From a virus, in the IMG/VR virus record IMGVR_UViG_3300008217_002503, positions 1 to 23,476 of that record: DNA of 23,476 nt, one strand, 5' to 3'. Positions 3,248-22,632 of the stretch are shown one piece after another. The first letter of the stretch is position 1, and each line of letters begins with the position of its first letter. Below the pieces are notes generated by a model. The model worked only from the letters and a program-made list of their open reading frames with translations. It had not been told where the DNA came from and ran no database searches. The translations under genes were made by a program, and so were the position numbers.

Positions 3248-5506
3248 TTAGCATTGCAACGCCATTTTTTGCTGAGTCTGCTCACGCAAAGCCCTACCCA
3301 GATTAGTCAAAGCTGTCTGGTAATATTCGGGCTTCAATTCAATGCCCAGGAATTTCCGACCTTGTTTCAGAGCCACGTATCCCTCAGACCCTATCCCCAT
3401 AAATGGACTCAAGACCACTTCGGAGGGGTTAGACCACAGCCGGATGCACCGCTCAATCACACTCAATTGCAAGGGCGCAATGTGCTTCTCGTCCTTTTCT
3501 GTACGCGCTTCGGCGGCGTTCAATGTATCGGACTCACGTATGTCATACCAGACAGGATGGGCCCATTTAATCCAATCCTCATTGGAAATATCTGGATGGA
3601 TCGGGATGTCTGGCTCGCCAGGCTTACGGAATACTAGGATATAATCAGCCAACCCAGGGCGCAGCCAAGAGGCATCTTTTTTCAATTGCTTGAATAACAG
3701 GGCCTTGCTGTGGGTCCGTACCGCCTGCGCTTGAGGATTTTTGTCCACGGTAACATCCCCATGATAATCAAAACCAGCTTCCACCATGCTCTGTATTACC
3801 AGTCCGCGGAAGTCTTTCAACCCAATAAACCCATCGTAAGCCTTCTTCGCCGGTACCTGTGCGACATGCGTAGCAACAAGACGCCCCGGCTTCATCAACC
3901 TCAGCAAGTGCCCTGCGAACTCGATATAAGCCTCTTCAAAAGTTGTCGTGTCCCTCTTGTTGCCCAAGTCACGGGAGTCAGCCGTATAGCTAAATAAGTT
4001 GAGAAACGGCGGGGAGAACACGCAGAAATCGACGGAGGATTCGGGGAGATCCGACATTTCTTCCAGGCAGTCGCCATGGATAACATTGTAATCCTCTGTT
4101 TGTACAGGCGGTTGCTTGATAGCTATGGCTGTTTCGGGTGTGGTTCCTTGTAAGATGCGGCGCCCATGTGCTGCCACTGCTCCAGCGACACGGTCAATAG
4201 TATTCTTATGTTCGACTTCTTTTTGTAGCACGTTCTCCAATACCGTCCTTTCAAGTTCCGAGATAAGTATGACTACCCTAACAGGATGCTGTTGACCGAA
4301 CCGGTAACTACGACGGATAGCCTGATAATATTGCTCGTATGAATCGCTCAGTCCCAAAAACATGATATTGTGACAAGTTTGAAGGTTCAGACCAAACCCG
4401 CCTATTTTTACCTTGGTTACTAGGACACGCGCACTCTTGTTGACGAATCGACCGATCTTACAAACCTTCTCCTCTATCGAATCGGCCCCTTCCACATCAA
4501 CAGCATCAAGTACTTGTTTTTTTAGGAGTCGGCTTTCTTCGTTCAGCCCACACCAAACTACCCATTGTTCATTTGATTCGTTGAGTATCTTAGCGGCTTG
4601 ATTGATGCGATCGTCCAGACTTAGGCGCCGTGCAGTCAACCGGCCTTCCAGCCCCGATAATCCTGTGACAAAGAGTCGCCCTGTGCGTTGGGCGTAAGCG
4701 GCCATATCAACGGGAGTTAAAATAGATTCCACGGTCAACGGCGGCAGGTGATAGCCATCATCAGAGAAGCCCAGTTGTGATGGATGCCCAAACATCATTG
4801 ACCACGAGGCCAGCCAGGCATAAAACGATTCTTCAGCCCACCCTTTTAGTTTCCAATCAGAGTCGTCATGAGTAAAGAAACTGCCCAACATCTGCCCCCG
4901 AGCCATAACGCCTAAGAATTCAGCGTGATTACCGAGTTCTGTCACGTCATTAGGCGCAGGTGTCGCTGTACAGCAGAGCCGATACGGTACGTCTTGGTAA
5001 CCCTCAATAAGTTTGGTGCGCGTCTTGCCATCCCAACTTTTCAGAATGCTTGACTCGTCCAGGACTAAGGCATCAACGACCTCGGCTGGAAAGTTATCAG
5101 CCATTTCATAGTTCGTCACGTAAAGACCTGGCCTACTAAGTTCATCGGCATCCCTCACATATTTACACTCCCAATCAAACTTACGTGCCTCATAACATGT
5201 CTGTTGAGCGACTGCCAATGGCGCCATGATTAGTCCGGTACCTCCAATCTTACGAAGCCACGCTAATTGCATCGGAGTCTTACCAAGGCCGCAATCCGCA
5301 AAGATCGCAGCCCTTTGACAATCATAGGCCCAATCCACAATGGCTTTTTGGAATGGAAATAACGTAGGTGTCATTTTAGAAACTTTGCAACTACTGCTGG
5401 TAACCTCGCAGCCCAAATCCGGGTGGGCCTTCTTGTAATATTCCAGGGCCCGGCTATCATTGGCGGGCGACGTCCTTTCCTCAGTGATTACGTGTAGCGT
5501 CTTCAT
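3248..5506 (-). CDS. SNF2-type helicase fused to a DNA methyltransferase
   Basis: 752 residues with two enzymes. Residues about 45-445 form an SF2/SNF2-like ATPase: Walker A DCGLGKT (71-77), DESS box (150-153), CTATPAP motif III (179-185), motif V around 363-378 and motif VI QAIRRSYRFGQ (395-405). Residues about 470-745 form a Rossmann methyltransferase: SPPF motif IV (498-501) and the SAM loop SPFMGIGSEG (700-709) near the C-terminus, i.e. the permuted beta-type order. SPP(Y/F) is typical of N4-cytosine enzymes, but N6-adenine is possible. It probably modifies phage DNA against restriction, with the motor supplying translocation or target access. Start at 5506 has GGGAG 7 bases upstream and overlaps the loader gene by 26 bases. 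Next downstream is the VRR-NUC gene. Confidence 0.9.
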   Translation of the reverse strand: MKTLHVITEERTSPANDSRALEYYKKAHPDLGCEVTSSSCKVSKMTPTLFPFQKAIVDWAYDCQRAAIFADCGLGKTPMQLAWLRKIGGTGLIMAPLAVAQQTCYEARKFDWECKYVRDADELSRPGLYVTNYEMADNFPAEVVDALVLDESSILKSWDGKTRTKLIEGYQDVPYRLCCTATPAPNDVTELGNHAEFLGVMARGQMLGSFFTHDDSDWKLKGWAEESFYAWLASWSMMFGHPSQLGFSDDGYHLPPLTVESILTPVDMAAYAQRTGRLFVTGLSGLEGRLTARRLSLDDRINQAAKILNESNEQWVVWCGLNEESRLLKKQVLDAVDVEGADSIEEKVCKIGRFVNKSARVLVTKVKIGGFGLNLQTCHNIMFLGLSDSYEQYYQAIRRSYRFGQQHPVRVVILISELERTVLENVLQKEVEHKNTIDRVAGAVAAHGRRILQGTTPETAIAIKQPPVQTEDYNVIHGDCLEEMSDLPESSVDFCVFSPPFLNLFSYTADSRDLGNKRDTTTFEEAYIEFAGHLLRLMKPGRLVATHVAQVPAKKAYDGFIGLKDFRGLVIQSMVEAGFDYHGDVTVDKNPQAQAVRTHSKALLFKQLKKDASWLRPGLADYILVFRKPGEPDIPIHPDISNEDWIKWAHPVWYDIRESDTLNAAEARTEKDEKHIAPLQLSVIERCIRLWSNPSEVVLSPFMGIGSEGYVALKQGRKFLGIELKPEYYQTALTNLGRALREQTQQKMALQC

Positions 5507-6329
5507 CTCCCCACTCCCTTGCGGTCCGGTAGCTGATGGCTGAGTTGTGCTCCGGCTGGACTATCCCCGACCCAAAATCGAATAAGCGGTCCGCAATGGC
5601 AGGTCCCTGCTTCTCCGCCGTCCTGAGCTCATCATCATTCGTCGTGATGACCATCAATCGATTGTCGGCATACCGGGGAGCTAAGAGTTTGGTCACTTGC
5701 TCTCGGGTCCACTCGCTTGGCTTCTCCCGTCCTAGATCATCAAGCAGCACCACATCGGCGGATTCGTAGCTGCTGAAAAGGCGTTCCAGGCTTTCCTCTG
5801 CTCCTGTGTCGAACGTCGCCCTGAGCTCGGCCAGCCACCTCGGGGCGAACAAGTACTTGACGATGTAATCCTGGTCCAGCATGTCCCGCCCAATGGCTTC
5901 TACCAGGTGGGATTTCCCATTGCCGTTCTGACCCCAAATGACTAGGAAGGCATTACCCCCCTCCCCCGCGGCGAAGTTCTTGGCCGCCTCGTAAGCAGCT
6001 TCAGCGCCCAGGACCGGAGTGAAGTTGGCGAAGGTCCGGGGTTCGCCAGCGTTCGGTAGGTTGGCGTACCGCCGGCGCCGTTCATCCGCACCTGAGCTCT
6101 CCGACCGGCACACGCATGAAACCGCCTGCCCAAAGTCGCTATGACCAACAGGCACATTCCTGGATACCCACCCGAAGTCTTTACACATGGGGCACTTCGG
6201 GCTGGACTCCTCCAACGGCAACTCCTCGTTCGTTGGCCATTTGTTGCTGCCGTCGGCGCATGTCTTCGGCTGCGTCACTATCCGATGCAGGATGTCCCCC
6301 AGGCTTTCCATTGGCCGCTCGATTGCCAT
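5481..6329 (-). CDS. DnaC/IstB-like replicative helicase loader (AAA+ ATPase)
   Basis: 282 residues. Walker A GQNGNGKS (133-140), Walker B VVLLDD (193-198), sensor-I ITTN (228-231) and an Arg finger-like DRLF near 247-250 mark the DnaC/IstB AAA+ class. The N-terminal part carries Cys46-x2-Cys49 and Cys72-x-Cys74, a likely zinc site, as in some phage loaders. It should load the host DnaB-type helicase onto the phage origin, partnered with the initiator encoded just upstream. The ATG at 6329 has GGAG 8 bases upstream, and the gene overlaps the initiator gene by 149 bases. Both frames look genuine in the overlap. Confidence 0.85.
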   Translation of the reverse strand: MAIERPMESLGDILHRIVTQPKTCADGSNKWPTNEELPLEESSPKCPMCKDFGWVSRNVPVGHSDFGQAVSCVCRSESSGADERRRRYANLPNAGEPRTFANFTPVLGAEAAYEAAKNFAAGEGGNAFLVIWGQNGNGKSHLVEAIGRDMLDQDYIVKYLFAPRWLAELRATFDTGAEESLERLFSSYESADVVLLDDLGREKPSEWTREQVTKLLAPRYADNRLMVITTNDDELRTAEKQGPAIADRLFDFGSGIVQPEHNSAISYRTAREWGDEDATRNH

Positions 6330-7095
6330 TGACCCGTCTCCGGTTCTCCATAGCGATTTTTAAAGCCTTATCCAGCCAGTTCCGCCAGGACGTTACCGGC
6401 CCTAGCGGTCCATCATGGTGTTTGGCAACATGCCAGTCGTAAAACTTATCCGCCTCAACCTGGAGGTCCAGCCTGTCAGACATGGCGCTGGCATAAGCGA
6501 CCATCCTGGCCTTGCCCTCCCGTTTGAGCCGCCGGATCGTCCCGAACTTTTCCAGGGTCGAGAAATACTCTGGTTTTTGGAGCTGATGGCCCTTCTCTGT
6601 TGTACTCTCTGTAGTAATCTCTGCTGTATTCTCTGTTTCCTTTAATAGTTCGCTCGGTTCCGCCGAACTAGTCTGCTCGGTTCCGACAGACAAGTCCGCT
6701 CGGTTCGTACAATCTAGTTCGCTCGGTTCCGCCGAACTAGTTGTGCCTTTTGCACATTGGTCTATGAGTTCAGCTAAGCGGTCAAGGTCCAGTTTGTAGT
6801 AAAGCGTCGCAGGCACGCCCCGGCGTCTAACCTGGAGGACTCCAAGTTCCCCCAGAGTGCGTCGGCCGGTTTCTTGATTACGTCGGGTAAGTCCCGTTTC
6901 ATCACTGAGTGCTTGCTCCGTCTTGTAGAACCAACCGTCTGGGTCCCGGGCCCGCGGAGCCCAGTAGAGAAGCTGGGACAGGTACACGGCAGTCGTGACT
7001 GATTCGCACACCCGGGCTAGTAGCGGGTGGTAAGCAATCGGCTGGTCTGTGAGAACTCCTTCAAGGGCTTTCAGTGCCTCTACCCGAGTAGTCAT
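6181..7095 (-). CDS. Phage replication initiator (winged helix, lambda O-like role)
   Basis: 304 residues. Residues about 30-103 form a winged helix of the kind found in phage and plasmid initiators (QLLYWAPRA, KTEQALSDETGL, then an Arg-rich recognition region and a wing). Residues 118-168 are a Ser/Thr/Glu linker encoded by repeated DNA. Residues 170-255 resemble the C-terminal domain of such proteins (FYDWHVAKH, SWRNWLDKAL). The tail is Gly/Arg/Asn-rich. It is followed by a helicase loader, the O/P order of lambda. The linker DNA carries four exact-spaced 23-bp iterons, so the gene probably contains its own binding sites. The start overlaps the upstream stop (ATGA, 7092-7095). Confidence 0.8.
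   Translation of the reverse strand: MTTRVEALKALEGVLTDQPIAYHPLLARVCESVTTAVYLSQLLYWAPRARDPDGWFYKTEQALSDETGLTRRNQETGRRTLGELGVLQVRRRGVPATLYYKLDLDRLAELIDQCAKGTTSSAEPSELDCTNRADLSVGTEQTSSAEPSELLKETENTAEITTESTTEKGHQLQKPEYFSTLEKFGTIRRLKREGKARMVAYASAMSDRLDLQVEADKFYDWHVAKHHDGPLGPVTSWRNWLDKALKIAMENRRRVNGNRAANGKPGGHPASDSDAAEDMRRRQQQMANERGVAVGGVQPEVPHV
6594..6641 (+). repeat. Four tandem 12-bp repeats beside the iterons (possible unwinding element)
   Basis: Four consecutive 12-bp units each begin with TCTCTG, at 6594, 6606, 6618 and 6630. They are richer in A+T than the flanking gene and lie 7 bases from the 23-bp iterons. In protein they encode a 4-residue TTES/TAEI-like repeat of the initiator linker, so a protein-level explanation is also possible. 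Short A+T-rich repeats next to iterons are the usual form of a DNA unwinding element in theta-type origins. That role is inferred. Confidence 0.5.
6649..6740 (+). repeat. Four tandem 23-bp iterons, putative replication origin
   Basis: The 9-mer GCTCGGTTC occurs at 6652, 6675, 6698 and 6721, exactly 23 bp apart. Units run 6649-6671, 6672-6694, 6695-6717 and 6718-6740 with no gap. The first and last units are identical, and each ends in CTAG or a near variant; copies 1 and 4 contain a short dyad (GTTC...GAAC). Twenty-three is not a multiple of three, so the four copies are read in different frames and the periodicity must be kept at the DNA level. Iterons inside the initiator gene, before a helicase loader gene, are the lambda ori arrangement. 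Confidence 0.75.
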
Positions 7096-7367: not shown

Positions 7368-8232
7368 TAGCCGCTCCTCTGCACCAATCGATCAGGTTTC
7401 CGTCTTCATCGTGAATGGGGTGCTTGCCTTGTTTGTCGAACTGGGTGCCATGCTCAGAACAGACGCCCGTAGCCACAGCGGTTGCCTCAGGATTAGATGT
7501 GGGCTGGTGGCCGTTCCCGGATCGGCTAGCTGGCGCCTCACTAACCACGTCGGTGAACACTTCACCCGTCAGCTCTTCCAGATCTTGTGTAAAGAACCGG
7601 GCGACTCCCGGGAGCTTTAGGGCGGCGTCAACGACGGCCCGTTTTTCGGCCATCTTCATGATTGTGTTGGTCTGGTCGAGAGGGTCCGGATTATCCACAC
7701 GCCCCACCTTTTGGCTTTCTATGGCCTCGTCTCCATCGGAGTATTTAGCCCCGCAACCACCCTGCTTCCTCCAACATAGCCAACCGCCGCCGAAGTCCTC
7801 TTTGCCCTTGATAATGGCGGTGGATTTACAGCTGGGGCAGGAGCGCTTCTCGTCCCGGTATCGGTACTTGACTTCCTGGTTGGTGCAGGCGCCTACCCCA
7901 TGAGCAACCACTACTCCCGTCCCGTTTACTTTGATCAGCGCCTCGTATTCGTAGAGGACAAAGCCGGTTTCTGGATCCACTACTGCCCTAGTCTGGTGTG
8001 GTTCCGAGTGGCAGCGCAGAGCTCCGATAATATTGTCGGCGCCGGCCTTCCAAAGGCTGTTGCGGTCCGTGCCGGGGATTACGCCATAGTCCTGGCCCTC
8101 ACGCAGAGCCTCTTTAACTAGACGTTCCAACAGCTCCAGCTGGCGTAATATCGTCTGGATTCCCGTTTCCGTGATCCCGAAGTCCACTGGGATCGCTGGC
8201 TGGTCCGTCGTAGGCGCCGGGGCTATTGTCAT
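7351..8232 (-). CDS. Conserved phage protein with internal zinc ribbon (possible recombination function)
   Basis: 293 residues from the ATG at 8232, chosen for the SD AGAGGTGG just upstream; a TTG at 8250 is less likely. A helical N-terminus leads to DYGVIPGT (49-55) and SLWKAGADNI (59-68), a signature I associate with conserved phage proteins encoded near recombination genes. A zinc ribbon follows (Cys132, Cys135, Cys153, Cys160), then the motif QTNTIMKMAEKRAVVDAAL (187-205), also widespread in such phage proteins. The C-terminus has a second Cys/His set (Cys258, His261, Cys284). The biochemical role is unproven; single-strand DNA binding or annealing is a guess from context. Confidence 0.65.
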   Translation of the reverse strand: MTIAPAPTTDQPAIPVDFGITETGIQTILRQLELLERLVKEALREGQDYGVIPGTDRNSLWKAGADNIIGALRCHSEPHQTRAVVDPETGFVLYEYEALIKVNGTGVVVAHGVGACTNQEVKYRYRDEKRSCPSCKSTAIIKGKEDFGGGWLCWRKQGGCGAKYSDGDEAIESQKVGRVDNPDPLDQTNTIMKMAEKRAVVDAALKLPGVARFFTQDLEELTGEVFTDVVSEAPASRSGNGHQPTSNPEATAVATGVCSEHGTQFDKQGKHPIHDEDGNLIDWCRGAANGNSK

Positions 8233-10253: not shown

Positions 10254-10712
10254 GGCCGGTTTCTGGTACTGGGAAAGGGTGGCCGGGAGCGATGGATGCA
10301 CCTAGGACACGTCGCAACAGAGGTGTTGTGGGACTACCTCCAGGCCCGGGCCCAACGAGCCGCCAGGACCAACGCTCTGTGGGTAGACGTAAAGGGAAAG
10401 GCAATGCACACTGACTGGCTCTACAGAATGTTGAAGCGACTGGGTAAGCGGGCTGGCGTACCCAATCTACACCCACACAGGTTCCGGCATACCTTCGCGA
10501 TTAAGTGGCTGGAAGCTGATCAACCGGAGCGTGTCTTAGAAATCGAAGGTGGATGGAAACGGATCCCTGACACTTACTTCGCGACACTCGGCGAGAAACA
10601 CGCCGCTGCCGCCCATCAGCGCATGAGCCCGGCGGACCGGCTAGGTCAGGGGGACAGTGGCAAACCAGGGCTTAGGCAGAGACAGGGTAAGTCTAGAGGT
10701 AGGTTGTGGTGA
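10254..10712 (+). pseudogene. Tyrosine recombinase (integrase), C-terminal remnant
   Basis: The only convincing plus-strand coding region. The frame opens after a TGA at 10251 and begins mid-domain (GKGGRERW), then LGHVATEVLWDYL. The HxxR motif appears as HRFRH (about 10476-10490), followed by GGW and the presumed nucleophile Tyr in DTYF. The whole N-terminal DNA-binding domain and the first catalytic Arg are missing, so it cannot be an active integrase. An ATG at 10296 could start a 138-residue fragment, but no SD was noted. Its broken end lies 19 bases from the -35 of the leftward early promoter, implying a deletion or recombination joint. The stop overlaps a further ATG (10712) giving only 17 codons. 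Confidence 0.8.
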
Positions 10713-11043: not shown

Positions 11044-11367
11044 CTATGCCACTATCCTTCGCGGGTGTCGAAGGTCGTGACGACGCAGATGTTCGGCACA
11101 CAATAGGGCGACCAACTCCTTCATCTGCTCTATCGACAATGTATCATTCCGGGAGTCCATCAACTCGCGGATCTTGGCGAGACCAGCCGTCTCCGAGGCT
11201 TCCTTATCTTCCAAGTATGCGGCGTATTCCTGAATAATAGCCCGTTGCTGTTGGAGCGTCGGACGCTTCCCAAGTGTCGCAGGCCAGCCGGTAAGGCGGC
11301 CTGCGTCTGTTCGGATTCCGGGTTCGTCGTTGTACTTCCAACCAAGCGCGATGCCCAGGAGCTCCAT
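11044..11367 (-). CDS. Hypothetical tail-region protein (107 aa)
   Basis: An N-terminal beta-like region with Trp-Lys-Tyr and Gly-Trp-Pro, followed by a long charged helix (about residues 40-95). The size, position after a tail fibre gene and before a holin-like gene, and architecture resemble small fibre-assembly or XkdW-like proteins. I do not see a diagnostic motif. The start is coupled to the fibre gene's stop (1-base overlap at 11367). Confidence 0.55.
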   Translation of the reverse strand: MELLGIALGWKYNDEPGIRTDAGRLTGWPATLGKRPTLQQQRAIIQEYAAYLEDKEASETAGLAKIRELMDSRNDTLSIEQMKELVALLCAEHLRRHDLRHPRRIVA

Positions 11368-12263
11368 TAGGGTTCAACCTCCCAAATGACGATGCTTGAA
11401 GGAGCTACTCCACCGAACTTCCTCGCACCTGCATCGCCGTTAAATGTCGTGGTGTTGGCTGCTGGAGCACCAGCGCGGACCTTAAACGTCGTGGCTGACA
11501 CAGTACCAGCATCCATAGGATGAGTGAAACTAACACAATGCCGTGAACCCGTTTCCTGGTCACGGCCTGAAGCAGCACGAAGGGCACCTGCTACGGAGTC
11601 TTGGAATAGAGCCACAACTAAGTCATTGGCAATACTGGTACTGCCCCAGAGGACTACTTGGATTAGGAGTTTGTTTGTCGTCTTGCTCGGGGTAATGGCG
11701 AGGGTCATGTATTCGTCGCCCTCAGTGTTCTGAGGGATCGTGTCGTCGTAGGGCATGACGGTAGTGCCCGTCGCGACTGCGCCGGTCACGGTAGAAACCA
11801 TTTGTTTCAGTTTCCCGACTGTCTGAAGCCACACGGCAGCGCTAGCAGTAGCGTCTACGCAGTGGTAGACCTGGTCGTTGGTAGTGTCGATCCAGATGGA
11901 CCCAACCGCGTAGCCTGCGGCGCTGTCGTCGGTCGCTCCTGGGGCGGCAGAAGCAGCCAGATTGGACTTCTTAGCTGATCCTGTACCCCCCTTGATTTCC
12001 AGGAATCCGTCGAACGCAGAAGCGTCAACTTCCAGACCTCCGACCTCGTGCCGGAGCAGCAAGCTCGCGGCGGAAACAAACGCATGGGCATGAGTCTTGA
12101 AGTCCGTCGCATCCCCGACCGGCACCCGCCCGGTCGCTGGGGCTGTGTTGATATCGAATATGTCATCGAAGGCTGTGAAGTTGTCTTTGATATGGGTGTT
12201 ACCCCACGCGGCGGTCGCTACATCTCCGGTTGTAATTGTTGGAACAGTGGTAAAAGTAACCAT
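11367..12263 (-). CDS. Tail fibre / receptor-binding-type protein
   Basis: 298 residues. Residues 1-65 form an N-terminal attachment region. Residues about 69-149 are a module shared with the 572-residue tail protein (HEVGGLEVDA ... APGATDDSAAGYAVGSIW ... AAVW). The C-terminal domain (about 155-298) has the pattern of many phage fibre tips: DDTIPQNTEGDEYMTLAITP, a beta-rich centre with ALFQD, and TTFKVRAGAP near the end. It probably contacts the host surface. The start overlaps the stop of the zinc-ribbon gene by one base. Confidence 0.75.
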   Translation of the reverse strand: MVTFTTVPTITTGDVATAAWGNTHIKDNFTAFDDIFDINTAPATGRVPVGDATDFKTHAHAFVSAASLLLRHEVGGLEVDASAFDGFLEIKGGTGSAKKSNLAASAAPGATDDSAAGYAVGSIWIDTTNDQVYHCVDATASAAVWLQTVGKLKQMVSTVTGAVATGTTVMPYDDTIPQNTEGDEYMTLAITPSKTTNKLLIQVVLWGSTSIANDLVVALFQDSVAGALRAASGRDQETGSRHCVSFTHPMDAGTVSATTFKVRAGAPAANTTTFNGDAGARKFGGVAPSSIVIWEVEP

Positions 12264-15324: not shown

Positions 15325-15595
15325 CTCGTTGCTCTGGAATCAATTCATGTCCACTCCCAATCCGAAGACGCTTGATTTCTGCCTTGGCGTTGGCGACGAT
15401 CTCTTCCGCCGTCTTATCACCAGGGAAATTGAAGAATAACTCCCGCAACAATCGACTACGGTGGTATCCAGTTACAGGGACCAATTCTCCCAGCACCGGC
15501 TCCATTTGAGTGGTAACACTACCCGAAGAAATCCTTACGGTGGCATGGGTCGAGGAGCCCCATTGAATGACCCTCGCTATTGCAATGTCGATCAT
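15317..15595 (-). CDS. Hypothetical tail-region protein (92 aa)
   Basis: An N-terminal beta half (IAIARVIQWGSSTHATVRI) and a helical C-terminal half with an EEIVANAKAEIKRL segment. The ATG overlaps the stop of the 572-residue gene (TAATG). Family not recognised. The position between a fibre-like gene and the 351-residue tail gene suggests a small baseplate or connector protein. Confidence 0.6.
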   Translation of the reverse strand: MIDIAIARVIQWGSSTHATVRISSGSVTTQMEPVLGELVPVTGYHRSRLLRELFFNFPGDKTAEEIVANAKAEIKRLRIGSGHELIPEQRDA

Positions 15596-17313
15596 TACGG
15601 CAACCTAAATATGAGGGTCAGGATCAAGCCCTTAGGGGCCGTTGTCGAATGGGCATCCACGTCTACTCGGAGCATATCGTTGGTGGCCACATCGTCATTG
15701 GCACCATCGATTACTGCTGGAGTCGCGGCAGTATCTGACCCTGTCTCTCCAGAATCGATGGTCAACTTTGTGGAAAGCATGTCGGCGGCTTGGGTAGCGT
15801 TGGCTATCTGAATGTCCGTCGTCCCAGTCGTTCCGGCGGTGATGACTTCTGCGTGTACCTCGACCAGGTTCATGCCGTTGTATGGACTGGGAATGTGTAT
15901 ATCGGCTTTACCATCGCCAGTTGCGACATCCGTGCCGCGCTCAAACACCACAACTTGAAAGCCTTTTTCGCCATGGACCGATCCAGCTAGACCGTCTGGT
16001 GTGATAGTCCTTGCGGCGTCGGTCCCAGTGTCTATCTCTGCGACCGTCGCTAATTCGGACTTGCCAGGCTGGGTCGCACTAGCATCCGGCACAAGGTTGG
16101 ACCAGGCTATTTTTTTCCCCACTCCCCCGTCGTTGATAAACACTTCATCGGTATCTGCTGGAACTGCAGATAGTGCAGTGAAGTTTTCGGGGTTCAGTAA
16201 GTTGGCTGCGGTGATTTTCTTGACCGTGCCACCGTCGTTGATGGTTACTTCGTCCGAGTCCGCGGGACCAGCGGCCAATTCAGCGAAATTCTCGGGGTTC
16301 AATAATTCACCGACGTCGACTCGTTTGGAAGTTCCCCCATCGCTGATATAAACCTCGTCGGTCTCGACGGGGCCTACAGCCAAGGCGGTCAAAGCCGTGA
16401 GCTTGCTCTCTGACCCGCTTTCAACTAACAGGGCGGCGCTGCCTACCACCTGTGTAATCCCGGTCCAGACTGCCGCGCCCGCTGACACGTCCAGGCAGAT
16501 GTAGGCTTTGTCGGCAGTGGTGTCTATCCATATTGAGCCGACAGAGTAGCCAGAGGCGGAGTCGTCAGAAGCTCCTGGGGCCACAGTGGCAGCTAGGTTG
16601 GATTTGCGGACGGTAGTAGCGCCGCCTTTGACTTCGACGTAGCCATCTCCAGCACTTACGTCGGCCTCAAGACCGCCCATTTCGTGCTTGACTTTGTCAC
16701 CAGCGGTTAAGAAGGCGGCGAGTATTCCCACGGCACCGGCACCAGAACCCCGTAATATGCCGCCGGTAGTGATGGCGGAGACGTCGGCTTCCAGGCCGCC
16801 TCTTTCATGGGCTAACGTACCGGCACTCACTCCTGATGCGTTAATACCGGAGTCCTTAACCAGCAGACCATCAATCGTGACGCCAGCACCAGCATCCTTT
16901 TCATCGATGACATCGACCTTGAGGCTTTTGGTTCCAGCTATCGTTACGTCGCCAGTGAGATCAACGGTCGCCTCTCCCTCGATGGCGGAGATCGCTTCAG
17001 CATCCGTGTATGCGGCTTGAGTGATCTCCATCCAGACCGCCGCCCCAGCCGACACGTCAAGGCAGATGTAGGCCTTGTCGGCTGTCAGGTCTAGCCACAT
17101 GGACCCGACCTTGTATCCGGCGCTCGTGTCGTCGGTGACCCCTGGAGCAGTCGACGCTGAGATATTGTTCTTGCGCCGACTCAGTTGGGTGACGCTGGAG
17201 GCTTCGACCGAATCGCCCGTAGCCTGGCCATCAAACACATGGGCGTCAATGTTCTCGTACTCTGCCTGTGTGAGCGAGGTTCCCTGGGATTTATGCTTGA
17301 GCTCGTCTGCCAT
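15595..17313 (-). CDS. Modular tail fibre/tip protein with internal repeats
   Basis: 572 residues. The N-terminus (1-45) probably anchors to the tail. Two copies of a roughly 50-residue module follow, at 49-98 and 238-288, sharing GYxVGSxWxDxTADKAY and CLDVSAGAAVW. Between them lie HERGGLEADVSA and HEMGGLEADVSA repeats (169-180, 210-221). Residues 314-410 hold three repeats of the form TDEVxIxDGGxxKK...LLNPENF. The C-terminal domain (about 440-572) resembles a beta-rich fibre tip. It begins at the base after the tape measure's stop, where a distal tail protein would usually be found. Confidence 0.7.
   Translation of the reverse strand: MADELKHKSQGTSLTQAEYENIDAHVFDGQATGDSVEASSVTQLSRRKNNISASTAPGVTDDTSAGYKVGSMWLDLTADKAYICLDVSAGAAVWMEITQAAYTDAEAISAIEGEATVDLTGDVTIAGTKSLKVDVIDEKDAGAGVTIDGLLVKDSGINASGVSAGTLAHERGGLEADVSAITTGGILRGSGAGAVGILAAFLTAGDKVKHEMGGLEADVSAGDGYVEVKGGATTVRKSNLAATVAPGASDDSASGYSVGSIWIDTTADKAYICLDVSAGAAVWTGITQVVGSAALLVESGSESKLTALTALAVGPVETDEVYISDGGTSKRVDVGELLNPENFAELAAGPADSDEVTINDGGTVKKITAANLLNPENFTALSAVPADTDEVFINDGGVGKKIAWSNLVPDASATQPGKSELATVAEIDTGTDAARTITPDGLAGSVHGEKGFQVVVFERGTDVATGDGKADIHIPSPYNGMNLVEVHAEVITAGTTGTTDIQIANATQAADMLSTKLTIDSGETGSDTAATPAVIDGANDDVATNDMLRVDVDAHSTTAPKGLILTLIFRLP
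16084..16374 (-). repeat. Three ~33-residue DGG repeats in the tail fibre gene
   Basis: Encodes residues about 314-410 of the 572-residue tail protein. Each unit has the pattern (T/S)DEV-x-I-x-DGG-x3-K and is followed by LLNPENF in the first two copies. The third copy ends differently (NLVPD). This looks like a repeated beta-hairpin of a trimeric shaft. Confidence 0.75.
16450..16602 (-). repeat. Fibre module, copy 2 (shared with 17020-17169 and 11817-11966)
   Basis: Encodes the APGxxDDSAxGYxVGSIW ... AAVW module of about 50 residues. The copy at 17020-17169 in the same gene, and the copy at 11817-11966 in the separate fibre gene, are clearly homologous at protein level and partly alike in DNA (the stretch encoding ADKAYICLDVSAGAAVW is nearly the same in both copies of this gene). 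Confidence 0.8.
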
Positions 17314-20816: not shown

Positions 20817-21224
20817 TTAAGCCCTGGTGGGAGCTGCGCCGTCCGCAGCCGCCGAGCCGCCGTTGTGCAGGATGCTGGCGGCGTAGGTGACCGGACCATT
20901 GACCCCTGCTGTGATGGTGTACGAAGTCACGATGCCGAAGCCGTTGTAGCCCGTGGCCCCATCCGGCTCGACGTCGTACTCCTCACCCTCCAATCCCAAT
21001 TCCCCGAATATCGTCGCGTCACCTTGCGACGCCGCCGGGTCCCAGAACCCCGCCACGTCAATGCTCAGCGTGGGCTTGCCAGCCAGGAAGTTTTGCCAGG
21101 CATCGGCGAAGGCGGTTATCTCTGCTGGGGGCACCGAGAAATTAAGGGTGACGGAATTCAGTTCATCCTCGATAGCGACGCTGTCGAAGCTGACATCTGC
21201 ATCCTTGCCGTGTACACGCGCCAT
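20817..21224 (-). CDS. Tail tube protein paralogue 1, probable major tail protein
   Basis: 135 residues. The N-terminus MARVHGKD, then LNFSVPPAEITAFADAWQNFLAGK and a beta-rich remainder, match the next gene upstream closely and the third paralogue more distantly. The pattern fits single-domain tail tube proteins of siphophages. Its SD (AGGAGGT, 7 bases from the ATG) is the best in the cluster, and it is followed by a strong hairpin, both consistent with high expression. It is adjacent to the chaperone genes, the usual place for the major tube protein. Assignment to tube rather than connector is inference. Confidence 0.7.
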   Translation of the reverse strand: MARVHGKDADVSFDSVAIEDELNSVTLNFSVPPAEITAFADAWQNFLAGKPTLSIDVAGFWDPAASQGDATIFGELGLEGEEYDVEPDGATGYNGFGIVTSYTITAGVNGPVTYAASILHNGGSAAADGAAPTRA

Positions 21225-21241: not shown

Positions 21242-21667
21242 CTACGATGTTGCTCTAGTAGTGTTGCCGGAATGTTGCAGGGTCGCCGTATAGGTGGCAG
21301 GTCCGCCCACTGGTAGGGATACGCTGTAATTCGCCACCAACACCCCCGTCAGCCCCGACGCTGTGCATTGGTACTCCGGGTCACTGGCGCCGGGCCCACT
21401 ACCGGTTGGGTCAAACACCGTTGATTTGACGCCTGCCCCGAAGCCTTCGAAGAGGGTCACATCCCCACCGCCCGCGGCCATGTTCAACGTTCCCGCGATC
21501 TCCGTCGATACCGACGGCTTGCCAGCAACGAAGTTTTGCCAGGCGTCGGCGAACGAGGTTATGTCCGCCGGAGGCACTTCAAAGTTCATTACAACGTTGT
21601 TTAGCTCCCCCTCAAGGCTGACGGCGTTATAGCTTAAATTGACATCTTTACCATGGACGCGCGCCAA
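21242..21667 (-). CDS. Tail tube protein paralogue 2 (TTG start)
   Basis: 141 residues. Shares MARVHGKD at the N-terminus and the region PPADITSFADAWQNFVAGKP with paralogue 1, with more divergence beyond residue 65. The start is TTG at 21667 with GGGAGGT 8-9 bases upstream, and the gene begins one base after the preceding stop. The weaker start codon suggests lower yield than paralogue 1. It could form a specialised part of the tail such as the terminator ring or a tube segment. Confidence 0.7.
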   Translation of the reverse strand: MARVHGKDVNLSYNAVSLEGELNNVVMNFEVPPADITSFADAWQNFVAGKPSVSTEIAGTLNMAAGGGDVTLFEGFGAGVKSTVFDPTGSGPGASDPEYQCTASGLTGVLVANYSVSLPVGGPATYTATLQHSGNTTRATS

Positions 21668-21882: not shown

Positions 21883-22632
21883 TTACGTCTCCCTCTCTCC
21901 CAGGGTGATAACCAAGTCAAAAGTCCGGCTGCCCGCCCCGGAGATCGTCACCACCACCCTCCACCAGGTATCTGTAAATGCCCCAGCGGCCTCCTGGACC
22001 TCATGGAGGGCCACGCTGGCCTGGTTCAGCGTCGTGAAGGTCAATCGGGTCGTCTCACCGCCGGCCGAGCTGTCAGCGTCGCTCTCGATGGTTACGTCGC
22101 AATCGTTGTTTCCCGACCCGCCTGGTGCCGATAAAAGCCGAAGAATCCCAACCAAGGTCTGGGTGGCGCCAACCGACCCGACTTGAAACTTGGTCCCGTT
22201 CTCAGTGGCCGCCACTGCCGTGTCCTTGTATATCAGCGCAGCCCGGACCACGGCCTGGTCACCCAACCAGGTCACATTCAGCCCGATCGCTGCGGCAGTC
22301 TCCGATACAATTGGACGTTCTGTGATGTTCGTACGGCCCTCGTAGCCGAAGTTGCCTTCGGTATCACCACCCGGATAAACCCCCACCCGCCGCTGGCTAG
22401 ACGTCAGATCAATGAACGTCTCCCCGTCATAGTTGGGGGAGCTGGTGGAGAATAGGCCCTGGATGTTGAATTGGAAGGTAGCCTTGCCCTCAACGAAAGT
22501 CGCGTGGGTGTCCGCGAACGCAGTTACCTCTCCCGGTGTCTCCGAGAAATCCAGTTGGGCGTTGTTCGAGACGCCGCTGAGATCGAACTCGTCAACGAAA
22601 TGGGCGACGGACTTCGCCGTTATTCGTACCAT
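21883..22632 (-). CDS. Tail tube-like protein paralogue 3 with extra C-terminal domain
   Basis: 249 residues. Residues 1-75 align with the two shorter paralogues: NNAQLDFSETPGEVTAFADTHATFVEGKATFQFNIQG. The rest is beta-rich. The final 100 residues (TQTLVGILRLLSAPGG, then DTWWRVVVTISG and a closing LVITLG) match a recurrent domain of phage major tail proteins. It may be the main tube subunit with a surface domain, the two shorter genes being derivatives, or a tail terminator. AGAAGG precedes the ATG by 4 bases. Confidence 0.7.
   Translation of the reverse strand: MVRITAKSVAHFVDEFDLSGVSNNAQLDFSETPGEVTAFADTHATFVEGKATFQFNIQGLFSTSSPNYDGETFIDLTSSQRRVGVYPGGDTEGNFGYEGRTNITERPIVSETAAAIGLNVTWLGDQAVVRAALIYKDTAVAATENGTKFQVGSVGATQTLVGILRLLSAPGGSGNNDCDVTIESDADSSAGGETTRLTFTTLNQASVALHEVQEAAGAFTDTWWRVVVTISGAGSRTFDLVITLGERET

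Follow-up and report, generated by a model that had tools for sequence, protein, structure and literature searches.

The replication origin of phage lambda consists of four dyadic iterons placed in the linker codons of an O-type initiator gene, followed on the side of the helicase loader gene by a tract that melts easily (PMC5043065, PMC7466680; lambda sequence). Lambdoid O proteins bind A/T-rich single-stranded DNA (PMC7466680), and DnaA, RctB and plasmid Rep proteins are established binders of specific single-stranded DNA (ssDNA) sequences within unwinding elements (PMC10797057). An initiator–helicase loader module with the origin inside the initiator gene also characterizes phage SPP1 (oriL in gene 38; likened here by its description) and phage 80alpha (ORF20) (PMC5499656). 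The RepA_N iteron origins of pSK41, pTZ2162 and the PLE satellite contain semi-palindromic direct repeats around an A-tract (PMC7145576). Short specific ssDNA words beside double-stranded binding sites are found at Bacillus subtilis oriC, where the DnaA-trios and the DnaD recognition element present a CTACTA-like sequence on the same strand as in the locus described below (PMC10201434). Repeated specific ssDNA words in an unwinding element adjoining the initiator sites are likewise a property of Vibrio cholerae ori2 (RctB) and of plasmids with Rep initiators (PMC10797057).

Here we describe a locus in a 23,476-nucleotide stretch of viral DNA (IMG/VR record IMGVR_UViG_3300008217_002503; the whole stretch is referred to as the window) that resembles these systems, lambda above all. 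The origin type is already known, and the locus is a new member of it. What is probably new is a conserved 12-mer element beside the iterons, which the original prediction of a lambda-like origin had overlooked, and for which searches by exact motif strings and by topic in the literature outside most subscription journals returned no description.

The gene at 6181–7095 on the minus strand codes for a protein of 304 residues with phrog_9773, "replication initiation O-like", as its best profile (E 5.3e-38) and weaker matches to DnaD-like families. An AlphaFold2 model of this protein, calculated from 52 homologues, consists of a winged helix (residues ~20–115) predicted with confidence, a disordered linker (~119–180) and a helical C-terminal domain of lower confidence. 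Based on pLDDT, DSSP and the ORF coordinates, the linker is encoded by 6556–6741 (−), so that the iteron array and the 12-mer tract fill DNA coding for a flexible linker. The next gene in the operon, located 3' of the initiator gene at 5481–6329 (−), encodes a DnaC-like AAA+ helicase loader (phrog_50, E 2e-36; Pfam Bac_DnaA and IstB) and no homologue of P. These assignments agree with the predicted winged-helix, O-like initiator next to a DnaC-like loader. The two reading frames share up to 149 bp (6181–6329), counting the loader from the first ATG of its ORF.

The modelled N-terminal winged helix appears to resemble the RepA proteins of the RepA_N origins. The first three Foldseek hits of the initiator model are N-terminal domains of RepA_N plasmid initiators (among them 4pql and 4pt7), with the Rep–DNA iteron complex 5kbj close behind, all at weak E-values. 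Since VIA-align places 4pql and 4pt7 (Z 9.8, rmsd ~6) level with CRP-type winged helices, this comparison backs the fold class and not the family. By sequence the initiator falls outside RepA_N: no Pfam family scored above threshold. Across the 52 initiator homologues Pfam detected nothing except DnaT in four, the C-terminal domains being diverse, and the family profile matched no sequence of a solved structure. Further differences from the RepA_N origins are that the PLE repeats are noncoding and that no 12-mer tract has been described there.

The core GCTCGGTTC occurs four times within the linker codons (6652, 6675, 6698, 6721), and both strands of the window are otherwise free of it. Tandem Repeats Finder (TRF) assigns a period of 23 with 4.2 copies (6646–6742), and a repeat search gives spacings of 23, 23 and 23. 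The four units on the minus strand (iteron 1, 6647–6669; iteron 2, 6670–6692; iteron 3, 6693–6715; iteron 4, 6716–6738) are phased as had been proposed, and the first is identical to the last. The proposal had also set the sites two helical turns apart; the tandem spacing holds, while 23 bp correspond to about 2.2 turns rather than exactly two. Every iteron is an imperfect dyad of the form AGTTCG-N11-CGAACT with 6-bp arms, the complete dyad being that of iterons 1 and 4. Iteron 2 differs from iteron 1 at two arm positions per side, and these changes compensate each other such that the arms remain complementary. Iteron 3 retains the core with a degraded dyad (three of six arm pairs). Complementarity at 20 of 24 arm positions was attained by 13 of 4000 column permutations. 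A possible, unproven fifth unit follows in register at 6739–6761 (−), degenerate and with a dyad of its own (TGTGC-CTTTT-GCACA).

The assertion that coding constraint cannot account for the 23-bp period stood up to a direct calculation: the best single-lag match over 69 bp is 52/69 at lag 23, and none of 3000 codon shuffles reached this value (mean 32.2, maximum 39). GC skew had been named as another check, and here the expectation failed, because the cumulative skew of the window has no turning point at the array.

The loader side of the iterons carries, at a distance of about 10 bp, another array with a period of 12 bp (6592–6636; 6594–6637 in TRF). It contains three copies of the 12-mer on the minus strand, CAGAGAATAC (6626–6635), CAGAGATTAC (6614–6623) and CAGAGAGTAC (6602–6611), and a partial fourth, CAGAGA (6594–6599; sequence and TRF). 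Nearest-neighbour stability marks 6590–6645 as an easily melted stretch and proposed DNA unwinding element: its GC content is 39% compared to 56% for the window, and only 0.2% of all 56-bp stretches in the window, or 0.7% of those in the gene, have a weaker stacking energy. The boundary between the two arrays carries CTATTA in gene sense (6643–6648, −). In relatives, CTATT is enriched at this boundary (31 of 91 within 25 bp, ~2.5 expected).

Dyadic iterons in linker codons, an adjoining loader gene and, between them, a tract that melts easily reproduce the lambda design that had been predicted. The differences lie in the details. Lambda iterons are 18 bp long and follow each other in steps of 20, 24 and 23 bp, compared to exactly 23 bp here; the lambda tract is plain A/T-rich DNA where this locus has a sequence-conserved array of CAGAGANTAC 12-mers; and the lambda loader is P instead of a DnaC-like protein. 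As the lambda origin contains no tandem 12-mers, the element is not required by every O-type origin. The A/T-rich region of lambda does contain CTATTACA at its near end and a single 9/10 match, CAGAGAATTC, at its far end; this resemblance is post hoc and no more than suggestive.

Searches of viral contigs by pattern are biased in that the word is their starting point. Therefore, the main tests were carried out on homologues retrieved by protein-based searches, which gave 175 loci, or 106 after removal of near-duplicates, the window included. Homologues with 20–40% identity contain an array of 21–24 bp period at the same place, made of different repeat sequences. Upstream of the 12-mers, lag 23 gives a mean match of 0.477 versus 0.267 for control coding DNA from the same genes. 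Among 91 non-redundant homologues with a tract, the best period upstream of it is significant and 21–23 bp long in 78 (exactly 23 in 67). This result answers the question, raised with the original prediction, whether the period outlives changes in the protein: it does, with both the repeat and the linker peptide differing. The consensus repeats are dyadic at p ≤ 0.05 in 34 of the 78 arrays (~4 expected) and at p ≤ 0.01 in 17.

The arrays of relatives cannot be aligned with one another. Phages with similar iterons tend to have similar winged helices (partial rank correlation 0.49, Mantel p 0.002), but the C-terminal domain shows no such relation (partial rank correlation 0.014). Such covariation is the signature expected of an initiator that would read its own iterons through its N-terminal domain. 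One locus, L279, seemed to combine the same iterons and C-terminus with a different N-terminus; this counter-example was discarded, as an expanded array had shifted the ungapped comparison. The L279 array upstream of the 12-mers is hugely expanded, with ~15 units in near-identical three-unit blocks, apparently via unequal exchange.

The 12-mers behave differently from the iterons. ACAGAGACTAC is present with at least 9 of 11 matching positions in 91 of the 106 homologous genes retrieved by protein. The profile of 216 copies, CAGAGANTAC, has nine strong positions and one free position, and the element is oriented, with 223 matches in sense direction compared to two as reverse complement. In motifs selected by their peptide, glutamate is encoded by GAG in 120 of 122 cases (48% elsewhere) and the first-position threonine by ACA in 58 of 59 (22% elsewhere). 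The third codon of the motif encodes Ile, Thr, Asn or Ser, yet always reads A-N-T. Hence, wobble positions are held fixed while one second codon position may vary, the reverse of coding constraint. In addition to the 12-bp step, steps of 10, 11 and 13 bp occur between copies, and copies with an 11-bp step occupy frames 0, 1 and 2 in 12, 8 and 2 of 22 non-redundant genes.

The same DNA also occurs outside the gene. Plasmid pBSG3 from Bacillus amyloliquefaciens (L355, 720–860) contains a block with 79% identity to the array and tract of Bacillus phage PM1; this block is interrupted by single-base indels and stop codons, and no such initiator gene is found around it. Five B. velezensis plasmids contain the same PM1-like block. 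Fixed wobble bases, the use of all three frames, the one-way orientation and the plasmid block without the initiator are four independent observations from which we can conclude that the 12-mer is selected as DNA. By accession, the PM1-like origin block is recorded, besides pBSG3, in NC_022531, NZ_CP009680, NZ_CP090151, NZ_CP117183 and NZ_CP117198. These Bacillus plasmids are small and mobilizable and have a Rep of the rolling-circle type; the block on them could possibly serve as a decoy or as a phage-dependent replication origin. Small Acinetobacter plasmids (L356, 3120–3150; L357, 1256–1440) contain 12-mer-like DNA outside annotated genes. These tracts could be decayed initiator genes and were set aside as evidence.

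The exact two-copy word was found on 79 viral contigs, in every case within ORFs of the initiator type. A degenerate three-copy pattern returned 116 readable loci, comprising 114 O-like genes, one truncated contig and one false positive, a large repetitive gene. A 35-base query against GenBank phages matched 102 records, which include phages of Acinetobacter, Staphylococcus, Klebsiella, Vibrio, Pseudomonas, Bacillus and Synechococcus as well as Lactobacillus phage mv4. Among the matches listed with annotation, most lie in replication-initiator or O/DnaD-like genes. Matches in bacterial genomes include cyanobacterial and Chloroflexota records, and the word is constant in phages of Pseudomonadota, Bacillota, Cyanobacteriota and Chloroflexota. 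About 14% of the homologues lack a canonical tract; in several of these the 23-bp array persists, and less strict words, for example CAAAGAATAC or GACTAC, come after it.

With these observations in hand, we have little doubt that the locus is a phage replication origin inside the linker-coding part of its own initiator gene, and the covariation and the lambda precedent make it very probable that the winged helix of the initiator binds the iterons. By analogy with known unwinding elements, the 12-mers are rather likely to serve for unwinding and ssDNA capture. Taken together, a bipartite phage origin in which iterons bound by winged-helix dimers adjoin a sequence-specific unwinding and ssDNA-capture element appears probable. 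The steps of the proposed mechanism are modelled on lambda and on plasmid systems. Dimers of the O-like protein would occupy the four dyadic 23-bp iterons through the N-terminal winged helix to form an O-some-like complex, and this complex would strain open the adjacent low-stability tract of CAGAGANTAC 12-mers. One strand of the opened tract would then be held sequence-specifically, most likely by the initiator and possibly by its C-terminal domain, and the neighbouring DnaC-like loader would deliver the host DnaB-type helicase.

Under this proposal the iterons vary because each initiator would read its own, and the 12-mers are constant because the step they would serve is one that all these phages have in common. 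The presence of the word at the same spot in hundreds of very different phages probably reflects a common role in the start of replication. The general form of this idea, to which we assign an even chance, is that an oriented CAGAGANTAC word in two to four copies, about one helical turn apart, would be read by one common factor or protein surface independently of the iterons and the type of loader, making the origin a swappable winged-helix–iteron cassette joined to a universal opening element. The 12-mer would differ in this respect from the words of V. cholerae ori2 and plasmid Rep origins, which are other in sequence, belong to unrelated initiators and are replicon-specific, whereas the 12-mer is common to very different phages. 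As to the binder of the 12-mers, our tentative first choice is the initiator itself over a conserved host factor, just short of an even bet; the diversity of the C-terminal domains is awkward if all of them are to read one word.

A reader of the 12-mers that is supplied by the host and universally conserved, similar to the situation at the DnaA-trio or DnaD-recognition element of the Bacillus oriC, is an unlikely alternative but deserves consideration. It would explain why the word is constant across phages of four phyla and across types of helicase loader, and the CTACTA-type sequence lies on the same strand and the same side of the binding sites as CTACTATTACTTCTACTA of B. subtilis (PMC10201434). 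However, the base inside the would-be trio is free (A, C, G or T), and neither the periodicity of consecutive 3'-[G/A]AT-5' trios nor the DnaA boxes of B. subtilis are retained. The strict reading as a DnaA-trio or DnaD element (TAGTAG on the lower strand, with the right polarity) was rejected for this free base. The window contains a single TACT, short of the TnnT pair needed by DnaD. No DnaA-box array adjoins the 12-mers: a weak TTTTGCACA (6748) and a single box (7691) do not exceed chance expectation for the window. The latter is a perfect TTATCCACA DnaA box (7691–7699, +) about 0.95 kb from the array.

Capture by the initiator is also preferred over the improbable reading in which the 12-mers owe their constancy mainly to a role as recombination joint, where the winged helix and iterons are exchanged against the C-terminal domain and loader. 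The similarity of N-terminal domains says almost nothing about that of C-terminal domains (rho 0.06), and a nearly identical winged helix with iterons and tract can be paired with unrelated C-termini, and vice versa. In ~600 bp scanned, the break point of 21 of 41 disjoint pairs with a sharp break in identity falls at the tract or no more than 15 bp from its end, a count that is indicative since the pairs are ungapped and anchored at the tract. These break points suggest an exchangeable cassette of winged helix and cognate iterons. A recombination joint should, however, preserve a block of homology instead of nine bases with one free, and should not tolerate steps of 10, 11 and 13 bp that break the frame.

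Slightly less credible still is that the array acts as an operator or RNA hairpin regulating the initiator operon, and not as an origin. A repressor could read the dyads, and the array folds better than shuffled sequences both as RNA and as ssDNA (z −3.8 and −3.7). On the other hand, near-identical dyadic tandem repeats are expected to fold, for which reason the RNA hairpin was set aside, and the 12-mer tract is unstructured. The position, the pairing of array with tract and the sharing with plasmids without the initiator would seem to fit an origin better.

That the 12-mers serve specifically for the landing of the DnaC-like loader is, in our view, very improbable. In favour of such a site, the loader is an AAA+ relative of DnaA (Bac_DnaA match), and cryptic ssDNA binding by lambda P and DnaC was reportedly observed by Learn et al. 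in 1997 (cited in PMC5043065). Among 69 genes downstream of 12-mer-bearing initiators, however, 19 encode a DnaB-like helicase, 10 a P-like protein and 4 a DnaC-like protein, with the rest including unknowns, and in phiMR11 the same 12-mers precede a small loader and a DnaB helicase. Since the downstream genes vary, the word is not tied to one loader, and a loader-specific site was rejected. The least credible reading, that the repeats merely reflect a low-complexity repetitive linker, finds both arrays within the coding gene where they encode the linker, and nearly all 12-bp-step copies reading TETTTETT in one frame, but a period that is not a multiple of three and the codon, frame and plasmid tests described above eliminate a coding-only explanation.

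Many phages have an origin hidden in the initiator gene, and such origins are hard to find because every phage has its own iterons. The constant, oriented word of 12 bp is a sequence tag for these origins in metagenomic phages and prophages, and raises the question of which reader recognizes one word across phages of four phyla with different loaders. The pBSG3 block points to plasmids as possible carriers of a phage origin, which would be a decoy or a hitch-hiker there, and the break points at the tract suggest that origin specificity is swapped together with the winged helix.

Several other features of the window were recorded. The gene at 3248–5506 (−) encodes a 752-residue protein in which an SNF2-like helicase is fused to an N6/N4 DNA methylase. 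The reading frame at 10296–10712 (+), on the strand opposite to the phage operon, corresponds to the C-terminal part of a tyrosine recombinase (positions 70–160 of the Phage_integrase profile) and is apparently truncated. The structural genes at 11367–12263 and 15595–17313 (both −) have the module KSNLAA..APGA.DDSA.GY.VGSIWIDTT in common. Finally, of three neighbouring tail-protein-like genes without Pfam match (20817–21224, 21242–21667 and 21883–22632, −), the first two are paralogues with 44% identity, and the third resembles them by eye.
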